A stretch of DNA of 44,850 nucleotides from Deltaproteobacteria bacterium (GTDB lineage Bacteria > SAR324 > NAC60-12), in assembly GCA_002683785.1 (NCBI GenBank), contig NYUB01000158.1:1-44850 (forward strand). Reading direction: 5' to 3'. This document shows positions 16,630 to 29,523 of the stretch, piece by piece. Position numbers and translations under genes: made by a program. The first letter of the stretch is position 1; each line of letters starts with the position of its first letter. The notes beneath the pieces are model-generated. The model had not been told where the DNA came from. It ran no database searches and worked only from the letters and a program-made list of their open reading frames with translations.

Positions 16630-18237
16630 TTAATTTGAAAGGCAGGTTTCTATAATTTTGAGTCGCTTCCGGTATTCCTCCTCACTCATCGGAGTCATCT
16701 GCTCCCGAACACACTCGGGCTTTTCCAGCAACTGACGCTGGCGGCGATAAAAATTCAATTGCATTTCGATTTCTACTGGAAAGGCTTTCAGAGGCCCGGA
16801 AAGAAGAAGATCGTGAGAAGCATCTTCCCGGAGGGTTTTCATTTCGGAGATGATTTGAGATTCAAGCAAATCCGTGTCTTCAACCATCTGGAGATCCAGT
16901 TTCCCCATCAGATCCTGCATGGATGAATGCATTCTGTTGAAACGTGCGAGTATTTTTTTGTGATACTCGGACTGACTTTCGAGTTGGAAAAAGAACTTTT
17001 CCGAGACTGAGCTATTGGGTCCGTTCAAAAGATCCCGGTCTGACGCCTCAATCCAAACCATGACGGAGTCTCCTGCACGAAGGGGGGTCATGGAAAGATC
17101 CCAGACATAATTCTCACTGTAGGTTTTATAGTCCTCTTCATACGACTGAAGGATTTCTTTATAGCGGCCTCCGGTCTGCTGGACTTGATAATGAAGCTGA
17201 ACCTGGTGCAGGGCATGGTCGTCTTCGGCGAAAACCTGGACGGCCATTTGGCTCGAATCGAATATATGCTTGATCTGAGGCCATTGGACTTTCAAAACTG
17301 GTTTCTGATCCGGGATGACTTTCCATGGAATCTCCCTTGATTCCCAGCCCAGTTTGAGTATTCCAGAATATTCAGGAGTGAGCCTCGCCAGAATCTGCTG
17401 TCCCCTTTCAGTCCATTGAAGAGGGATTTTTCCTTTAGGATTCACAAAGTAGGATGAATCTTTTGAAAAGGGAATTTCGATCCAGGACATTTCCAATTGA
17501 CTACCTAAGGGTGTAGAAAGCTGTTCAGGCAAGTTTTGATATTTTTGCGCAGACCGTTTGAGGTAAGCAGGAAACAAGATTCTGTAAGATTCGGCTTTTC
17601 CTTCCTCAGTGTGTGAAAAGGCGCCCCCTCCAGAAGCCGGATTTTGCTCCATGAAAAAAAAACCTGCCAGCATCGCCTGGACAATCATTGAAAATGCGAT
17701 TGCAGAGATCCATCCTGGTTTTGGTGAGTAACGTCGGATGGAATCAAGCAGTTCCTGCTCATGCTTTTCTTTGAAGTATTTTTGATAGATTTGTCTGGAT
17801 TCTTCCTGTTCACTGATCCGTTTATCTATAAAAAATATCTCAGTGTCTCGGTCCAGATCGAATTGTGTTCTTAATTTCTCGGTGAGATTGGAATAGGTGC
17901 CTCCGAGTTTTTTGAGACAGCCCTCTTTGTTAACTCTGAAGAAAGTCCAGACTGAGGAAAGTATCAGGAAAAAGAAACTCAGGGAAAGGAGGCTGCCAAA
18001 GGAATATCTTCCAGGCTCAAACCAGATCAACAGGGAGGCAAAAAGACTGCAGCCACTCCAGGCAAGTGCTCCATGCCGGATCCGCTGCAGCAGGATATAC
18101 TTTTGAAACCAATTCGAATGGGAACTGGAGGAAGTGTGCTTTATCGGTGGTGGCTCGGGATTTTTCGAAGGAGTTTCGGGATCATCAACTGGATCAATTG
18201 AGGTGACTGGGATGCTCCAGCAGGTCCATAAGGTCAT
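16630..18237 (-). CDS. Membrane protein of unknown function (DUF4175-like)
   Basis: A 535-residue protein. A Pro-rich N-terminal tail is followed by two close hydrophobic segments (about 58-96), then a charged stretch, then a third membrane segment (about 175-195). A large domain presumably outside the membrane includes VQVFAEDDHALHQVQLHYQV, a beta-sandwich-like segment reminiscent of DUF4175-type proteins. The C-terminus is helical and Gln/Glu/Arg-rich. I cannot assign a function. Its start overlaps the 3' end of the small upstream gene by about 44 bases, and no ribosome site is visible, which suggests translational coupling. Confidence 0.65.
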   Translation of the reverse strand: MTLWTCWSIPVTSIDPVDDPETPSKNPEPPPIKHTSSSSHSNWFQKYILLQRIRHGALAWSGCSLFASLLIWFEPGRYSFGSLLSLSFFFLILSSVWTFFRVNKEGCLKKLGGTYSNLTEKLRTQFDLDRDTEIFFIDKRISEQEESRQIYQKYFKEKHEQELLDSIRRYSPKPGWISAIAFSMIVQAMLAGFFFMEQNPASGGGAFSHTEEGKAESYRILFPAYLKRSAQKYQNLPEQLSTPLGSQLEMSWIEIPFSKDSSYFVNPKGKIPLQWTERGQQILARLTPEYSGILKLGWESREIPWKVIPDQKPVLKVQWPQIKHIFDSSQMAVQVFAEDDHALHQVQLHYQVQQTGGRYKEILQSYEEDYKTYSENYVWDLSMTPLRAGDSVMVWIEASDRDLLNGPNSSVSEKFFFQLESQSEYHKKILARFNRMHSSMQDLMGKLDLQMVEDTDLLESQIISEMKTLREDASHDLLLSGPLKAFPVEIEMQLNFYRRQRQLLEKPECVREQMTPMSEEEYRKRLKIIETCLSN

Positions 18238-19219: not shown

Positions 19220-21733
19220 ATGGCGTTGCGCATCCCCTTAAGTTGGCTGCAGGATTTTGTCGATCTAGATCAAAGTCCTAACAAACTAGCCGAAGTTCTG
19301 ACCATCTCTGGTATGGAGGTGGAAAGCATTGAACACCTTGGTGGCAACTGGGGGGATTACTGCCGGGTAGGTGAAGTGCAGAAGGTGGTTGCCCATCCCA
19401 ATGCGGACAGTCTTAGTATCGCAACCGTTGATTACGGAACCGATCAATCACTGGAAGTGGTGACTGGGGCGCCAAATATTCGTGAACTGGAAAACAGTCC
19501 TAGAGGAACACCTCCCAAAGTTGCCTTAGCGCTTTCTGGAGCAACCCTGGTGGATCCTTATCATGATCACCACCCGCTGATTCGTTTGAAACCCTCGAAG
19601 ATCCGCGGGATTCTCTCGGAGGGCATGATATGCTCCGAATTGGAATTGGGACTGGGTGAGGCACATGAAGGAGTTTTATTTCTTCCTGAAGACGCACCGG
19701 TCGGACGGTTGCTAAAGGATTATCTTGGGGATTCGATCCTGGAATTTGATATCAAGGGTGGTTTCGCCCACCTCCTTTCCATTTTTGGGCTAGCTCGGGA
19801 AACGGCGGCCATTACCCGGATGCGGCTTAAATCTGAAAAACTTCCGGACCTCTCAAGACTGATCTTTCAACAGCCCAATCAGAAGTTGAAATCATCTGAA
19901 GCCGATTTCGTGAAACTGAAAATCGAGGACCCCTCTTTGTGTCCACGTTACAGTGCCTTACTGGTACGAGGGATAAAGATTGGACCTTCACCCTTTTGGT
20001 TGCAGCAACGGCTTCAGCGAGCAGGCATGCGACCTATCAACAATATTGTTGATATTACGAATTACGTCATGTTGGAGCTTGGACAGCCACTTCATGCATT
20101 TGACTATCAGGCGTTATGTCAAAGGGCAGCTGGAGATATTCCTGAAATCATCATAAGAGCCGCCAGGAATGGTGAAATCCTGACGACACTCGACGGTGAA
20201 GAAAGAAAACTGGATGATCAGATGCTGATGATCACCGATCGTTCAGGCTTGATCGCCATTGCTGGGGTAATGGGGGGAGAAGAAACAGAGGTTGATAAGG
20301 AAACCTGTGATGTTTTGCTGGAATCTGCGAATTTCGATTTCTTGAACAATCGCCGTACTTCCCAGTTACTCAAACTAAAAACCGAAGCTAGCGAACGCTT
20401 TGGAAAACGTCTCAATGCGGATGGCACCATGACTGCCGCGCTCAGGGCGGCAGAACTTTGCGAATCGATTGCAGGAGGAACCCTGGAAGTTCAAGCAGCT
20501 GATCTCTATCCTGGACTGGTTGAAGATCAGACAGTGGATCTGGATCTGCTTTATCTTGAAAGGGTGCTTGGAATTCAGGTGGAAAAAGTTGAAGTGATCA
20601 GAATACTTGAAGCCCTTGGTTTCTCTGTCGAGACCATGACAGGGGAAGAAAAACTTCATGTGACGGTACCTCCACATCGGCTTGATATTGATATTCCTGC
20701 CGATCTGGTTGAAGAAATCGCCAGGGTTCATGGTTATAACCGGATGCCTTCGACTTTGATACGGGATGCCCTTCCTCCACAAAGAGAAAACATTCAACTC
20801 CAGGGGGTAGAGTGGATTCGCGATATTCTCACCGGATCAGGTCTGGATGAAATCATCACCTACACCATGACCAGTCCTCTGGATGAGTCATATTTATTTT
20901 TGAGAGAAGGATTTGAGGAAAAAGATTATGTCCCTGTACGCAATCCTCTATCCAACGAACGAAGTCATCTTCGTCGGAAACTGCTTCCGGGAGCATTGCA
21001 TTCTGCGAGGCAAAACCTGAGATTTGAAGATCAGGTTCATGTATTTGAAACGGGTGGAGTTTTTATTCCTGAACAAAACGAGGTGCTTCCCAAAGAACCA
21101 ATGGAACTCTGTCTGTTGATGATTGGCAAACGTGAGAAGCAGAGCTGGCATGATGCAGTGGATGGAGACATGGATTTTTTTGACATGAAAGGGGTGATTG
21201 AAAATCTATTTGCCACCCTGCACCTTCTTGATGTTGAATGGAAGAAATCCCGGCAATTGCCTTACCATCCTGGCCGTTGTTCTGAAATCATCTCAAACGG
21301 AGTGCAAATCGGTATTATGGGTGAACTACACCCGGATGTTCGACGCCTGTTTGAACTTCCTGACAGACCTGTGGTTTGTGCAGAACTTCAACTTCATGAA
21401 TTAATGAATGCCGTCAGTCCTCATTTTTTAATGGAGGAAATATCTTCTTTTGCACCGATATATGAAGACCTGGCATTTGTGGTTGACGGTTCAATCGAAG
21501 TAGAAACTCTGGTTCCCTTCATTCTAAAAAATGGGAAGCCTTTGCTGAAGAATGTTCAGCTTTTTGATGTGTTTCAGGGAGAAGGTTTAGGAGATGGGAA
21601 AAAAAGCTTAGGTTTTTCAATGACCTATCAGGCAAAAGACAGAACCCTCAGCGATAAAGAAGTGGAAAAAATCCGCAACCGTATCATCAAGAAAGTGAAC
21701 CAGAACTTTCAGGCAACCCTGCGTGAATCGTGA
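19220..21733 (+). CDS. pheT: Phenylalanyl-tRNA synthetase beta subunit (PheT)
   Basis: PheT is the beta chain of the alpha2-beta2 enzyme that charges tRNA-Phe. It carries tRNA binding and the editing of misacylated Tyr-tRNA. Domains in order: N-terminal region with an EMAP-type tRNA-binding domain (about 40-150), B3/B4 editing domain (about 215-390), B5, the catalytic-like core, and a C-terminal FDX-ACB domain (about 740-836) containing APIYEDLAFVV. At 837 residues it is somewhat longer than usual. The segment after the tRNA-binding domain reads FDIKGGFAHLLSIFGLARE, where most PheT proteins have NR(P/G)D before LS. pheS, normally adjacent, is not in the window. The stop overlaps the dgkA start. 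Confidence 0.96.
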   Translation: MALRIPLSWLQDFVDLDQSPNKLAEVLTISGMEVESIEHLGGNWGDYCRVGEVQKVVAHPNADSLSIATVDYGTDQSLEVVTGAPNIRELENSPRGTPPKVALALSGATLVDPYHDHHPLIRLKPSKIRGILSEGMICSELELGLGEAHEGVLFLPEDAPVGRLLKDYLGDSILEFDIKGGFAHLLSIFGLARETAAITRMRLKSEKLPDLSRLIFQQPNQKLKSSEADFVKLKIEDPSLCPRYSALLVRGIKIGPSPFWLQQRLQRAGMRPINNIVDITNYVMLELGQPLHAFDYQALCQRAAGDIPEIIIRAARNGEILTTLDGEERKLDDQMLMITDRSGLIAIAGVMGGEETEVDKETCDVLLESANFDFLNNRRTSQLLKLKTEASERFGKRLNADGTMTAALRAAELCESIAGGTLEVQAADLYPGLVEDQTVDLDLLYLERVLGIQVEKVEVIRILEALGFSVETMTGEEKLHVTVPPHRLDIDIPADLVEEIARVHGYNRMPSTLIRDALPPQRENIQLQGVEWIRDILTGSGLDEIITYTMTSPLDESYLFLREGFEEKDYVPVRNPLSNERSHLRRKLLPGALHSARQNLRFEDQVHVFETGGVFIPEQNEVLPKEPMELCLLMIGKREKQSWHDAVDGDMDFFDMKGVIENLFATLHLLDVEWKKSRQLPYHPGRCSEIISNGVQIGIMGELHPDVRRLFELPDRPVVCAELQLHELMNAVSPHFLMEEISSFAPIYEDLAFVVDGSIEVETLVPFILKNGKPLLKNVQLFDVFQGEGLGDGKKSLGFSMTYQAKDRTLSDKEVEKIRNRIIKKVNQNFQATLRES

Positions 21734-22104
21734 AAGCAGAAATCCTCCATGTCTGGAAAGCCCTGCATTATTCCGCAGATGGTCTGATCTCGACTTTTCG
21801 CAATGAAACGGCTTTTCGACTCGAACTGCTCATGGCCGTAGTGCTGATTCCAATCGCTCTGATTCTGCCTCTTAAGGGTATAGAAAAAATGATGCTGATC
21901 TGTTCTGTACTCCTGGTATTGGTGGTTGAGTTGCTCAATACGGCAGTAGAGTCCGCAGTGGACCGTGTATCTGAAGAAACCCACCACCTTTCTAAAAGGG
22001 CCAAAGACGCTGGCAGCGCAGCGGTTTTTATCAGCCTCTTCATTATGGGAACGACTTGGTTCACTCTGTGTTTCGAACTTTTTTTTCAAAGTGATGTTGA
22101 TTAG
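21730..22104 (+). CDS. dgkA: Diacylglycerol kinase DgkA
   Basis: DgkA is a small inner-membrane kinase that phosphorylates diacylglycerol (or undecaprenol in related proteins), recycling lipid products of envelope synthesis. The 124-residue sequence has the expected three hydrophobic helices. The family signature is present: VELLNTAVESAVDRV followed by AKDAGSAAV, including the catalytic Glu and the metal-binding Asn/Glu pattern. It starts with GTG inside the pheT stop (GTGA overlap), so it is translationally coupled to pheT. E. coli DgkA is of similar length (122). Confidence 0.93.
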   Translation: MKAEILHVWKALHYSADGLISTFRNETAFRLELLMAVVLIPIALILPLKGIEKMMLICSVLLVLVVELLNTAVESAVDRVSEETHHLSKRAKDAGSAAVFISLFIMGTTWFTLCFELFFQSDVD

Positions 22105-22147
22105 ATGTTTTTGAATGGAAGGGTTTCGTTTTCAAACCGTTGAAATC

Positions 22148-22399
22148 ATGATAATAAAGATTGAAGCCTTTGCGATTCTGAAAGACCTTTTCGGACAAGA
22201 GTTTCTTGAATATGAATTGCCTGAAGGGACAACTGCTGAAAAGATGCTGGATATGCTTTCGAGAACTTTTCCTAACTCGGAACAGATTCTGAATGTCACT
22301 CGGGTGGCTCATCAGGATGAGTACCTGTCCCAGAGTGAGGTACTCATGGAAGGCGAGTCTTATGCATTGATTCCTCCTGTGAGTGGAGGTTTGAAATAA
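22148..22399 (+). CDS. MoaD/ThiS-family sulfur-carrier-like protein with C-terminal extension
   Basis: A ubiquitin-like (beta-grasp) protein of about 83 residues resembling MoaD, the small subunit of molybdopterin synthase, which carries a thiocarboxylate on its C-terminal Gly. The end reads ALIPPVSGGLK: the conserved PPVSGG motif is there, but two residues (Leu-Lys) follow the Gly-Gly. Classical MoaD and ThiS end exactly at GG. Proteins such as QbsE have extra residues that a JAMM protease removes. ATG at 22148 gives MIIKIEAFAILKDLFG, the family-like start; the frame is open to an ATG at 22115. It lies between dgkA and the MBL/cNMP gene with gaps under 50 bases. No other molybdopterin gene is nearby. 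Confidence 0.8.
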   Translation: MIIKIEAFAILKDLFGQEFLEYELPEGTTAEKMLDMLSRTFPNSEQILNVTRVAHQDEYLSQSEVLMEGESYALIPPVSGGLK

Positions 22400-22446: not shown

Positions 22447-24654
22447 ATGATTGAAAGTATTTTTGTTTCACCTGGGGTACATTGGGTGTCTTTTCCTGAA
22501 GCCAACCTCAATGTGCTCTGTGGATGTCCTGCAGACAGTGTGAAACACCTGATGAAAAAGGGTCTGATCCGAAGTATCGAAAAAGACGGTATGACCTACG
22601 AATCAGGTCCTAATGCCATCCTCCTCTCCGATTTAAAACTCCAAAACGGTCATTTCGCAAATCTTGCAGAATTTCCCATCCTCCAGATGCTTTACCGGCA
22701 AGGGATGTTGCTTCCGAATCATCCCAATAATACAGGAGCTAAGCCAATTCTGATTGGCCGTGAAGATTTGGTTCGGGAACAAATGAACTACATATTCCGT
22801 GGAAATTATGGTCTGACTTCTGTTGAAGAAATCATCGATGCGGGAATCGATTCTGAAAAGGCCGAAGAAATGATGCGTCTCAAGCTACGTTTTGCCTTTG
22901 GACACATCCATCCCAGTGAAAAATTACTCGAAGCTAAAATCGTGGATGAGGGTAAGACGGAAATCTCCAATGGAGTTGAAGTCTCCCGTCTGGCAATGAA
23001 TGTATACCGTTTCGAATACCAAGGTGAATCGTTGGATGTGGATTTAAATCTGAAGCAGGATGAGGATTATGAGACGCCCTTTGAACTCGAATTACACAAT
23101 TTTAAGAGGGAATATTTTTCAGTCGTTCATACTGGTGAGGGAGATGGTTGGGATGTGAATCGGCCGTGTATGGCAAGTGTCCTCAATTATCAGGGGAAAA
23201 TATACTTGATTGATGCAGGGCCGAACATATCACATAGCTTGAACGCGATGGGGATCGACATCAACGAAGTTGAAGGCATCTTTCATACGCATGCCCATGA
23301 TGATCATTTTGCTGGACTGACTACGTTGATTCGGGCAGATCATCGAATCAAGTATTTTGCCACACCGTTGGTAAGGGCTTCTGTTACTCACAAACTGGCA
23401 GCATTGATGTCGATTGAGGAGAGCAGTTTCCAGGAATTTTTTGATGTTCATGACCTTGATTTCAATACCTGGAACAGCATCAATGGGCTTGAGGTTCGTC
23501 CAGTTTTTTCACCTCACCCTGTGGAAACAAACATTTTGTTCTTCCGAACACTTTGGAAGGAGGGCTACATCGAATATGCGCATCTGGCGGATATCGCATC
23601 TTTTGAGGTACTGGAAGGAATGATTACGGAAGACCAACTGTCTCCCGGAATTTCCAAAAAAATGTTCGAGGATACACGTGAGGACTACCTGAAACCGGTA
23701 CATCTTAAAAAAATTGATATCGGTGGAGGATTGATTCATGGCAAAGCGGAAGATTTTGTCGAAGATGGTTCAGAAAAAATCGTACTTTCCCACTCGTCCC
23801 ATGAACTGAGCAACCAACAAAAGATGACTGGTTCGGCTGTATCATTTGGAACCACCGATGTGCTCATTCCCGGGAATAGTGATTATAGCATGAGGTCCGC
23901 ATACGGCTTTTTGAAAGGATATTATAGGGGGGTTGAGGAAAGTGACATCAACATGTTGCTTAATTGCGGACACCAGATTTATAACGCTGGGACTTTGCTC
24001 ATCCATAATAATGAAGTTCCCAAATCTGTTTTTTTGATCTTAACAGGAACCGTCGAATTCATTGCTGCGGAGGATTCCAGTGCGAGTATTCTCTCTAGTG
24101 GATCGATGGTAGGGGACTTGGCGGTACTATCCGGTTTAAATAATTTTGGAACGTACCGAACCTTGACTCATGTAGACGCTTTGACTGTTCCTGCTTCGCT
24201 ATTCAAGGAATTCGTGAACCGAAACCAGCTTTCAGAAGAGATTCAGAACATTCAGGATACAATTGGATTTTTTCAGAAAAGCTGGCTTTTTGGAGAATCG
24301 GTTTCTTCTCCGGTCAAAGCCAGGATTGCGCGCAAGACCGAATTGCTGACTTGCCCTGAAGGGAAGGGTTTGCCCACCGATTCCGGGTTGATCCTGTTGA
24401 AACATGGAGAGATCGAACTCACTGTAAGTGGTGACCAGAATCATCTTGTTCAAGTCGCCAATGGGGATTTCTGGGGTGAAGAAAAGATCTTATCGCATGA
24501 ACCTCTCTATAAAAGTTCAGAGGCTAAAGTAGATTCAACGCTTTACAAAATCAACGAAATGGATCTTCTCAAAGAGATTCCTGTGGTTCGTTGGAAATTG
24601 ATTGAACATTGGGAAAAGAGGCGTGATAAAATTCAGAACTCAATCCGTTCTTAA
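22447..24654 (+). CDS. Metallo-beta-lactamase-fold protein fused to two cyclic-nucleotide-binding-like domains
   Basis: A 735-residue protein. Residues 1 to about 210 are an N-terminal region I do not recognise. The next part (about 215-500) is a metallo-beta-lactamase fold: LIDAGPNISH, then HTHAHDDHFAGL with metal-binding HxHxDH at H282, H284, D286 and H287, then SPHPVETN, EYAHLADI and LSHSSHEL as later metal ligands. From about 505 to 615 there is a cyclic-nucleotide-binding-like domain (FLILTGTVEFIA, then GSMVGDLAVLSG). A more degenerate second one lies at about 620-730 (LILLKHGEIELTV, then GDFWGEEKIL). The first lacks the usual phosphate-binding Arg, so ligand binding is uncertain. The substrate is unknown. 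It is downstream of pheT-dgkA-moaD-like and probably in the same operon. Confidence 0.75.
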   Translation: MIESIFVSPGVHWVSFPEANLNVLCGCPADSVKHLMKKGLIRSIEKDGMTYESGPNAILLSDLKLQNGHFANLAEFPILQMLYRQGMLLPNHPNNTGAKPILIGREDLVREQMNYIFRGNYGLTSVEEIIDAGIDSEKAEEMMRLKLRFAFGHIHPSEKLLEAKIVDEGKTEISNGVEVSRLAMNVYRFEYQGESLDVDLNLKQDEDYETPFELELHNFKREYFSVVHTGEGDGWDVNRPCMASVLNYQGKIYLIDAGPNISHSLNAMGIDINEVEGIFHTHAHDDHFAGLTTLIRADHRIKYFATPLVRASVTHKLAALMSIEESSFQEFFDVHDLDFNTWNSINGLEVRPVFSPHPVETNILFFRTLWKEGYIEYAHLADIASFEVLEGMITEDQLSPGISKKMFEDTREDYLKPVHLKKIDIGGGLIHGKAEDFVEDGSEKIVLSHSSHELSNQQKMTGSAVSFGTTDVLIPGNSDYSMRSAYGFLKGYYRGVEESDINMLLNCGHQIYNAGTLLIHNNEVPKSVFLILTGTVEFIAAEDSSASILSSGSMVGDLAVLSGLNNFGTYRTLTHVDALTVPASLFKEFVNRNQLSEEIQNIQDTIGFFQKSWLFGESVSSPVKARIARKTELLTCPEGKGLPTDSGLILLKHGEIELTVSGDQNHLVQVANGDFWGEEKILSHEPLYKSSEAKVDSTLYKINEMDLLKEIPVVRWKLIEHWEKRRDKIQNSIRS

Positions 24655-28500: not shown

Positions 28501-29523
28501 ATGGATTTGAAGCAACAGGACGAAAAACTCTACAAAACTTTTACAAGCTGTCTGGTTAGTTCAGAGTCACACAAAACTCTGGATATCGATCAGATGAAAC
28601 TGTGCCTCGTTCCCGATGGGCAGTTGGAGGAGGGAAAAAACCTGGTGGAACAGTTGCTCAATCCTTCAGGAGGTACAGGCCTTCAGCAACCGCTGACCTT
28701 TGAGCTCAAGGAAATCCTTCAGGCCTGGCTTAAAGATTTCATCAAGAAAAATTCGAGGTATCAGCAGGAAGATTTAAAACTTTTTGAAGTCATTGAACCT
28801 GATGCCATTCTCAGTTTTGAGCAGTTGGTGATCACTCCCCGCATCACGAAGAACCTTCACGACTTAAACGGGGGATTGACAGGGAAAGTGGTCATTGAAT
28901 CGATCCGGGGCAAAAGCTATTTCATCTACGAAAGTGGTGATCACAAACTGTTCTATATCAACCCGAACGCCCTTATTTCAGGAATTTCTGGAATGGGTTT
29001 CGAAGTCAATGAGGAGCTTTCAGGAATTCTGAAAAAAAAGATCAATCTCAAGAAAAATATCCAGCTCTTGATCAGGAATCAAAATTTCTACTACCAGGCG
29101 ACTCGTAAAGAGGAGCCCCAGCCCATCGGGGTTTCCTTCAGCATTTTGGATAAGCCAGTTTCGTTTCTCAGCCGTTTTAATGAAAATAACTCAGACACGG
29201 TTTTCACGACTCCGGTTTCAGAAGAAATCATAAAAAAAATCAATGATATTCAGAGGAATACTTCCTACAGCGAATTTCAGATAAAGCATAGTGGAGAAGA
29301 TATAAGCCTGCTCTTGCATTCTCAGACTTTAGGGGATTCCCTGGAAATCCACCGTTTCCATTGTGGTATCCCGACTCTGGATCGAGAAACCGTTTATCAT
29401 TTGGAAGATTATCTCTTCAGTACCACGGCAAAATCTTTTTCACTGTTAAAAAATGGAGTCTTCATTGTCGACCTTGAGGATGATTCTCTGGTGATCATCA
29501 TCTGCAAAACTGAAAAATTTTAA
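28501..29523 (+). CDS. Hypothetical protein, 340 residues
   Basis: A soluble protein with no signal peptide or membrane segment that I can see. It has an N-terminal helical part (1-100), then an alternating strand-like region with LNGGLTGKVVIESIRGKSYF, then a Lys-rich segment (KKKINLKKN) and a mixed alpha/beta C-terminus. I do not recognise a family or catalytic motif. Codon use looks like that of its neighbours. The start codon is preceded by leader element B rather than a normal ribosome site. Confidence 0.75.
   Translation: MDLKQQDEKLYKTFTSCLVSSESHKTLDIDQMKLCLVPDGQLEEGKNLVEQLLNPSGGTGLQQPLTFELKEILQAWLKDFIKKNSRYQQEDLKLFEVIEPDAILSFEQLVITPRITKNLHDLNGGLTGKVVIESIRGKSYFIYESGDHKLFYINPNALISGISGMGFEVNEELSGILKKKINLKKNIQLLIRNQNFYYQATRKEEPQPIGVSFSILDKPVSFLSRFNENNSDTVFTTPVSEEIIKKINDIQRNTSYSEFQIKHSGEDISLLLHSQTLGDSLEIHRFHCGIPTLDRETVYHLEDYLFSTTAKSFSLLKNGVFIVDLEDDSLVIIICKTEKF

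Follow-up and report, generated by a model that had tools for sequence, protein, structure and literature searches.

P0001 is a 735-residue protein encoded in a 44,850-nucleotide contig from the SAR324 lineage (the whole stretch analysed here, referred to as the window), and it joins an N-terminal domain, a metallo-beta-lactamase (MBL) domain and two cyclic-nucleotide-binding (cNMP)-type domains in a single chain. We propose, with about as much confidence for as against, that P0001 is a metal-dependent phosphodiesterase controlled by its C-terminal cNMP-type pair, and that it belongs to the MBL branch shared by RNase Z and the class II cyclic-nucleotide phosphodiesterases. The combination of an MBL domain with two cNMP domains is already known from Dictyostelium; P0001 differs in being bacterial and in the loss, in its branch, of the arginine that binds the cyclic phosphate.

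In Dictyostelium, cGMP or cAMP stimulates the MBL phosphodiesterases PdeD (GbpA) and PdeE (GbpB) via two downstream cNMP domains (PMC11988041; PMC3188802). Like them, P0001 has an HxHxDH-containing MBL domain ahead of a cNMP-type pair within a single polypeptide, a likeness of domain layout, and is a bacterial counterpart of an arrangement documented, in the literature found, only in amoebozoa. It differs from the two eukaryotic proteins, whose cNMP domains bind and activate, in that its clade is without the cassette arginine. The searched literature yielded no assayed bacterial counterpart of PdeD/PdeE. An earlier note on this DNA had pointed out that cNMP domains usually gate channels, kinases or transcription factors; the domains are real, and PdeD and PdeE provide a precedent for their pairing with an MBL enzyme (PMC11988041; PMC3188802).

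Domain organisation and distribution

P0001 is a genuine protein and not a chance reading frame, since about 50–82% identity is retained across dozens of genomes. The start codon is ATG, according to the ORF list and translation, and the chain is divided as follows:

22447–24654, + strand: P0001, whole gene, 735 residues, N-domain, MBL and cNMP-type domains 1 and 2 (ORF, Pfam, family conservation)
22447–22980, + strand: N-terminal domain, residues 1–178 (family alignment; in every homologue class)
23110–23886, + strand: MBL domain, residues 222–480 (Pfam, PDB profile matches, phrog_392)
23932–24261, + strand: cNMP-type domain 1, residues 496–605 (Pfam, genome search, cassette comparison, PKG profile match)
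24262–24651, + strand: cNMP-type domain 2, residues 606–735, more degenerate (28.3 bits, above cut-off; PKG profile match)

The earlier note had read an MBL motif and two cNMP-type domains in this chain, and a Pfam HMM search finds both families, all above their cut-offs. It had also left an N-terminal stretch unassigned; neither Pfam nor the PDB offers a match for some 178 residues there, even with a 31-sequence profile. This N-domain is common to all 57 aligned family members, in which K33, E75, F76 and G122 are invariant. The possibility that it is a degenerate half-MBL was considered and rejected: residues 22–61 lie in the expected register against the MBL core, a result that is not significant (P 0.023), and profile searches were empty. 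AlphaFold2 models of full-length P0001, built from a two-sequence alignment (mean pLDDT 28.5), and of the C-terminal pair (mean pLDDT 37.9) carry no structural claim, their low confidence being due to insufficient alignment depth.

The nearest named relative belongs to a SAR324 metagenome-assembled genome (82% identity). Among 30 other genomes in the same SAR324 family, 29 carry the gene, and a homologue at E ≤ 1e-30 is found in 45 of 52 genomes of the phylum, its own included; the assembly that contains the window has a completeness of 87%, and the genomes compared are drafts. Outside SAR324 the distribution is sparse, covering at least two other phyla. A plasmid tblastn search with P0001 gave no match, and a scan of viral contigs gave short MBL matches only.

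Homologues fall into classes that differ in length and C-terminal content. Class c1 is P0001-like (~735 residues) and has members in two other phyla, one of which also carries relatives of ~740–765 residues with a canonical second cNMP domain. Class c2 (~480 residues) consists of the N-domain and MBL only, with the metal ligands kept, and has a TerB-domain gene and the gene for EPSP synthase as neighbours. Class c3 is ~805 residues long, class c4 (~480 residues) has no fused cNMP domains, and class c5 (~800 residues, from another phylum) is flanked by genes for a Der-like GTPase and an EF-G-like protein, both named from sequence only.

Metal site and probable chemistry

P0001 belongs to the MBL superfamily of binuclear metallo-hydrolases, with the HxHxDH motif, which the earlier note had correctly located at residues 282–287, and downstream His, Asp and His ligands present in each of the 57 family members aligned:

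23290–23307, + strand: HxHxDH metal motif, H282-A-H284-D-D286-H287 (invariant, 57/57)
23515–23517, + strand: H357, predicted metal ligand (57/57)
23590–23592, + strand: D382, predicted bridging metal ligand (57/57)
23716–23742, + strand: DxGGGxIHG signature, D424–G432 (H431 in 57/57, D424 in 56/57)
23791–23793, + strand: H449, predicted last metal ligand (57/57)

Two Pfam models, Lactamase_B_2 (9.8e-9) and Lactamase_B (1.9e-8), exceed their cut-offs, the MBL models lying at residues 240–358, and phrog_392 matches residues 247–464 (E 1.2e-13), nearly the entire domain. K316 is likewise kept in all 57 members. The full predicted ligand set, together with K316, H431, K33 and E75 in 57/57, speaks for an active metalloenzyme throughout the homologue classes.

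Searched against the PDB, the MBL family profile finds its best solved structures in Apyc1 and RNase Z/ELAC1, all phosphodiesterases. Of the regulated hydrolase or oxidoreductase suggested in the earlier note, the hydrolase half therefore stands, while the oxidoreductase half is not favoured because these closest MBL relatives are phosphodiesterases. Apyc1 and YhfI are class II phosphodiesterases that cleave cyclic mononucleotides (PMC9117128) and share the MBL fold and HxHxDH motif with P0001, but are single-domain enzymes. Against the Pfam Apyc1 model (PF23023) P0001 scores 19.4 bits, under the cut-off of 50.

The case for a phosphodiesterase is built from the metal ligands, the Apyc1 and RNase Z matches, the cNMP hydrolysis by Apyc1 and YhfI, the precedent of PdeD and PdeE, phrog_392 and, as described below, the PKG match, the arginine-bearing relatives, the separate cNMP gene of class c4 and the cyclases. 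Against it are counted T292, which occupies the place of the catalytic E74 of Apyc1 (five past the last His of HxHxDH), the profile match to known phosphodiesterases, which is strong mainly across the first ~75 positions, and the c2 forms, in which N-domain and MBL occur without cNMP domains.

A different substrate within the same MBL branch would make P0001 an RNase Z-like nuclease, or another RNA or nucleic-acid phosphodiesterase, whose cNMP-type pair and N-domain would help in oligomerisation or substrate choice and not in cNMP turnover. RNase Z is the best NCBIfam match (43.2 bits, residues 238–296), ELAC1 ranks high in the PDB search, and the four other MBL proteins of the assembly that were scanned against NCBIfam gave no RNase Z match (0/4). 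However, the score is far below the equivalog cut-off of 292.95 bits, RNase Z has no cNMP domains, and the neighbours of relatives are mainly signalling rather than RNA genes, with two exceptions that adjoin a pseudouridine synthase. We consider such a nuclease unlikely.

Tandem cNMP-type domains and their cassettes

By sequence, both C-terminal stretches match the cNMP-binding domain fold. Pfam PF00027 (cNMP_binding) matches P0001 in two stretches (61.9 bits, cut-off 27.5); scored separately in the genome search, positions 23980–24225 reach 41.1 bits and 24379–24573 reach 28.3 bits, both of which pass. The second domain had been called degenerate and is indeed more so than the first, yet it remains over the cut-off, and hhalign aligns the two with each other (Prob 97.8, E 1e-12). 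Over residues 493–727, an 18-homologue profile aligns end to end with the cNMP pair of cGMP-dependent protein kinase (PKG; E 4e-31), sequence evidence that agrees with the cNMP fold assigned earlier to this region. The tandem arrangement resembles the regulatory pairs of PKG and PKA, with the differences that the output of P0001 is an MBL enzyme ahead of the pair, not a kinase, and that the cassette arginine is lost. PADLOC matches cover only the cNMP domains of Pycsar proteins, and a defence role is thus unsupported.

The functional cAMP/cGMP cassette, FGE(L/I)A...R(T/A/S)A with its phosphate-binding Arg, is absent from P0001 and its clade. The domain 1 cassette (residues 552–572, GSMVGDLAVLSGLNNFGTYRT) is without this Arg, as the earlier note had observed, and so is that of domain 2 (GDFWGEEKILSHEPLYKSSEAKV); all c1 members have lost it from both domains. 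Classes c5 and c3 retain it in their domain 1 cassettes (FGELAVNTSNPHRRATVRA; GDVGVMAARPRMASVKS), and in three ~740-residue relatives from another phylum domain 2 is canonical, with a cassette of the FGEIAL..RRTATVRA type. The simplest reading of these cassettes would be an ancestral cNMP control that was afterwards lost or retuned in c1. Across the wider family, with its Arg-bearing distant classes, control by cAMP, which the earlier note had proposed, is plausible; in its classical form it is doubtful for P0001, because the entire clade has lost the Arg from both domains, which counts against cNMP sensing there. The Arg-bearing and Arg-less relatives form a natural series for studying ligand change and ligand loss in cNMP domains.

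In the proposed phosphodiesterase, whose chemistry, substrate and direction of allosteric control we infer, MBL activity would be set by the C-terminal pair, arranged as in PKG, PKA-R and PdeD/PdeE. In the distant classes the sensor would probably respond to a cyclic mononucleotide, so that the phosphodiesterase, under cNMP control, would damp its own signal. In the P0001 clade, since both cassettes are without the phosphate-binding Arg, the pair has probably shifted to a different ligand, to a partner or a sensor joined to it (the hemerythrin domain carried by some relatives would be one) or to a structural role, and the enzyme would remain active despite the Arg loss.

Taken further, this loss could mean that the cNMP-type domains bind nothing and serve as scaffolds, P0001 being a constitutive hydrolase of an unspecified small molecule, as might be suggested by the clade-wide disappearance of the Arg from both domains and by the c2 forms, which keep the metal ligands and dispense with cNMP domains. 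It is quite improbable, given that both domains are retained in every clade member, paralogues included, and that those of P0001 still pass the family cut-off.

Class III cyclases are present in all 52 SAR324 genomes searched, with 8 matches in that of P0001. This ocean lineage is rich in such cyclases, yet the P0001 assembly contains only three cNMP-domain proteins: P0001 itself, L001 (G000:C43), a transporter-like protein with two cNMP domains at its end, and L002 (G000:C96), in which a receiver-like stretch and a GGDEF-like region come after a cNMP domain, the last two described by sequence resemblance. The large-genome SAR324 relatives G005, G010 and G006 have 44–51 class III cyclase matches apiece.

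Gene neighbourhoods and added domains

P0001 is preceded on the same strand by pheT, dgkA and moaD, in that order:

19220–21733, + strand: pheT, with which the same-strand run considered begins (Pfam, NCBIfam)
21730–22104, + strand: diacylglycerol kinase dgkA, same direction as P0001 (Pfam)
22115–22399, + strand (true start probably 22148): moaD-like neighbour, C-terminus PPVSGGLK (Pfam, NCBIfam, relatives' ends)

The moaD-like gene lies 47 bp upstream of P0001 and its product looks like an ordinary MoaD; it scores 49.9 bits against TIGR01682, below the cut-off of 66, and MoaE is encoded elsewhere (G000:C10). The earlier note had taken it for an operon partner. The adjacent same-strand gene is there, but the pairing is not conserved: in a neighbourhood survey of full-length homologues, moaD adjoins the MBL gene at all examined loci of genera g1 and g7, which are sister clades on a tree built by a quick method with long branches between classes, and in no other family member. 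A functional link between MoaD and P0001 was accordingly rejected as lineage-specific. A hydrolase tied to molybdopterin synthesis, for instance by processing the MoaD C-terminus, would explain why moaD is immediately upstream at these loci and why the window copy, ending in GGLK, would require trimming; most neighbouring copies end in PPVSGG, however, and so already in GG, every other examined lineage has the MBL family without moaD, and MBL enzymes are not known to act as MoaD peptidases, all of which renders this role hardly credible.

Several g7 homologues (L015, L017, L019, L020, L022, L025 and others) have one stop codon within the aligned stretch and long frames, which probably marks the end of the alignment and not a broken gene. 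Elsewhere in the window, two ORFs are without a Pfam match (16630–18237, − strand, 535 residues; 28501–29523, + strand, 340 residues).

In class c4, the gene order in L061, L062 and L063 is N-domain plus MBL, a small unassigned gene, a Memo-like gene and a separate canonical cNMP-domain gene, so that in three genomes the cNMP domain is encoded three genes downstream of the MBL. Other c1 members often adjoin histidine kinases, response regulators, SpoIIE, STAS, chemotaxis receptors, MscS channels and GGDEF genes. These neighbourhoods are only suggestive, as the genomes are signal-rich and the counts have no background rate.

A C-terminal hemerythrin domain is found on five c1 relatives of MBL-cNMP-cNMP layout from three phyla (L039, L040, L075, L076 and L077), four of which cluster on the tree; that of L075 sits inside a long GC-rich frame. 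The literature searched contained no description of a protein combining MBL, cNMP and hemerythrin domains. L079 is adjoined by separate hemerythrin, REC-GGDEF and Hpt genes, and L080 by a REC-GGDEF gene.

Such fusions and neighbours would fit a signalling hydrolase linked to redox state or to O2/NO: its MBL centre, and in some proteins also hemerythrin, would respond to oxygen, and the cNMP-type pair would act as a relay. The metal-ligand spacing of P0001 (69, 24 and 66 residues) is also of the order seen in flavodiiron proteins. The second ligand of flavodiiron proteins is typically Glu, though, where P0001 has His; the flavorubredoxin match ranks well under the phosphodiesterases, and P0001 and its close relatives have no hemerythrin. 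On balance a redox role of this kind is unlikely.

Returning to the phosphodiesterase reading, its broader form is possible, although we would not expect it: a bacterial class of MBL phosphodiesterases whose tandem cNMP-type domains gave up cyclic nucleotides for another signal, to which hemerythrin and two-component modules were added by lineage, and which share an undescribed N-domain throughout. One c1 relative (L031:3986–6673) carries a C-terminal Zn_protease-family domain (PF05618) and no hemerythrin.
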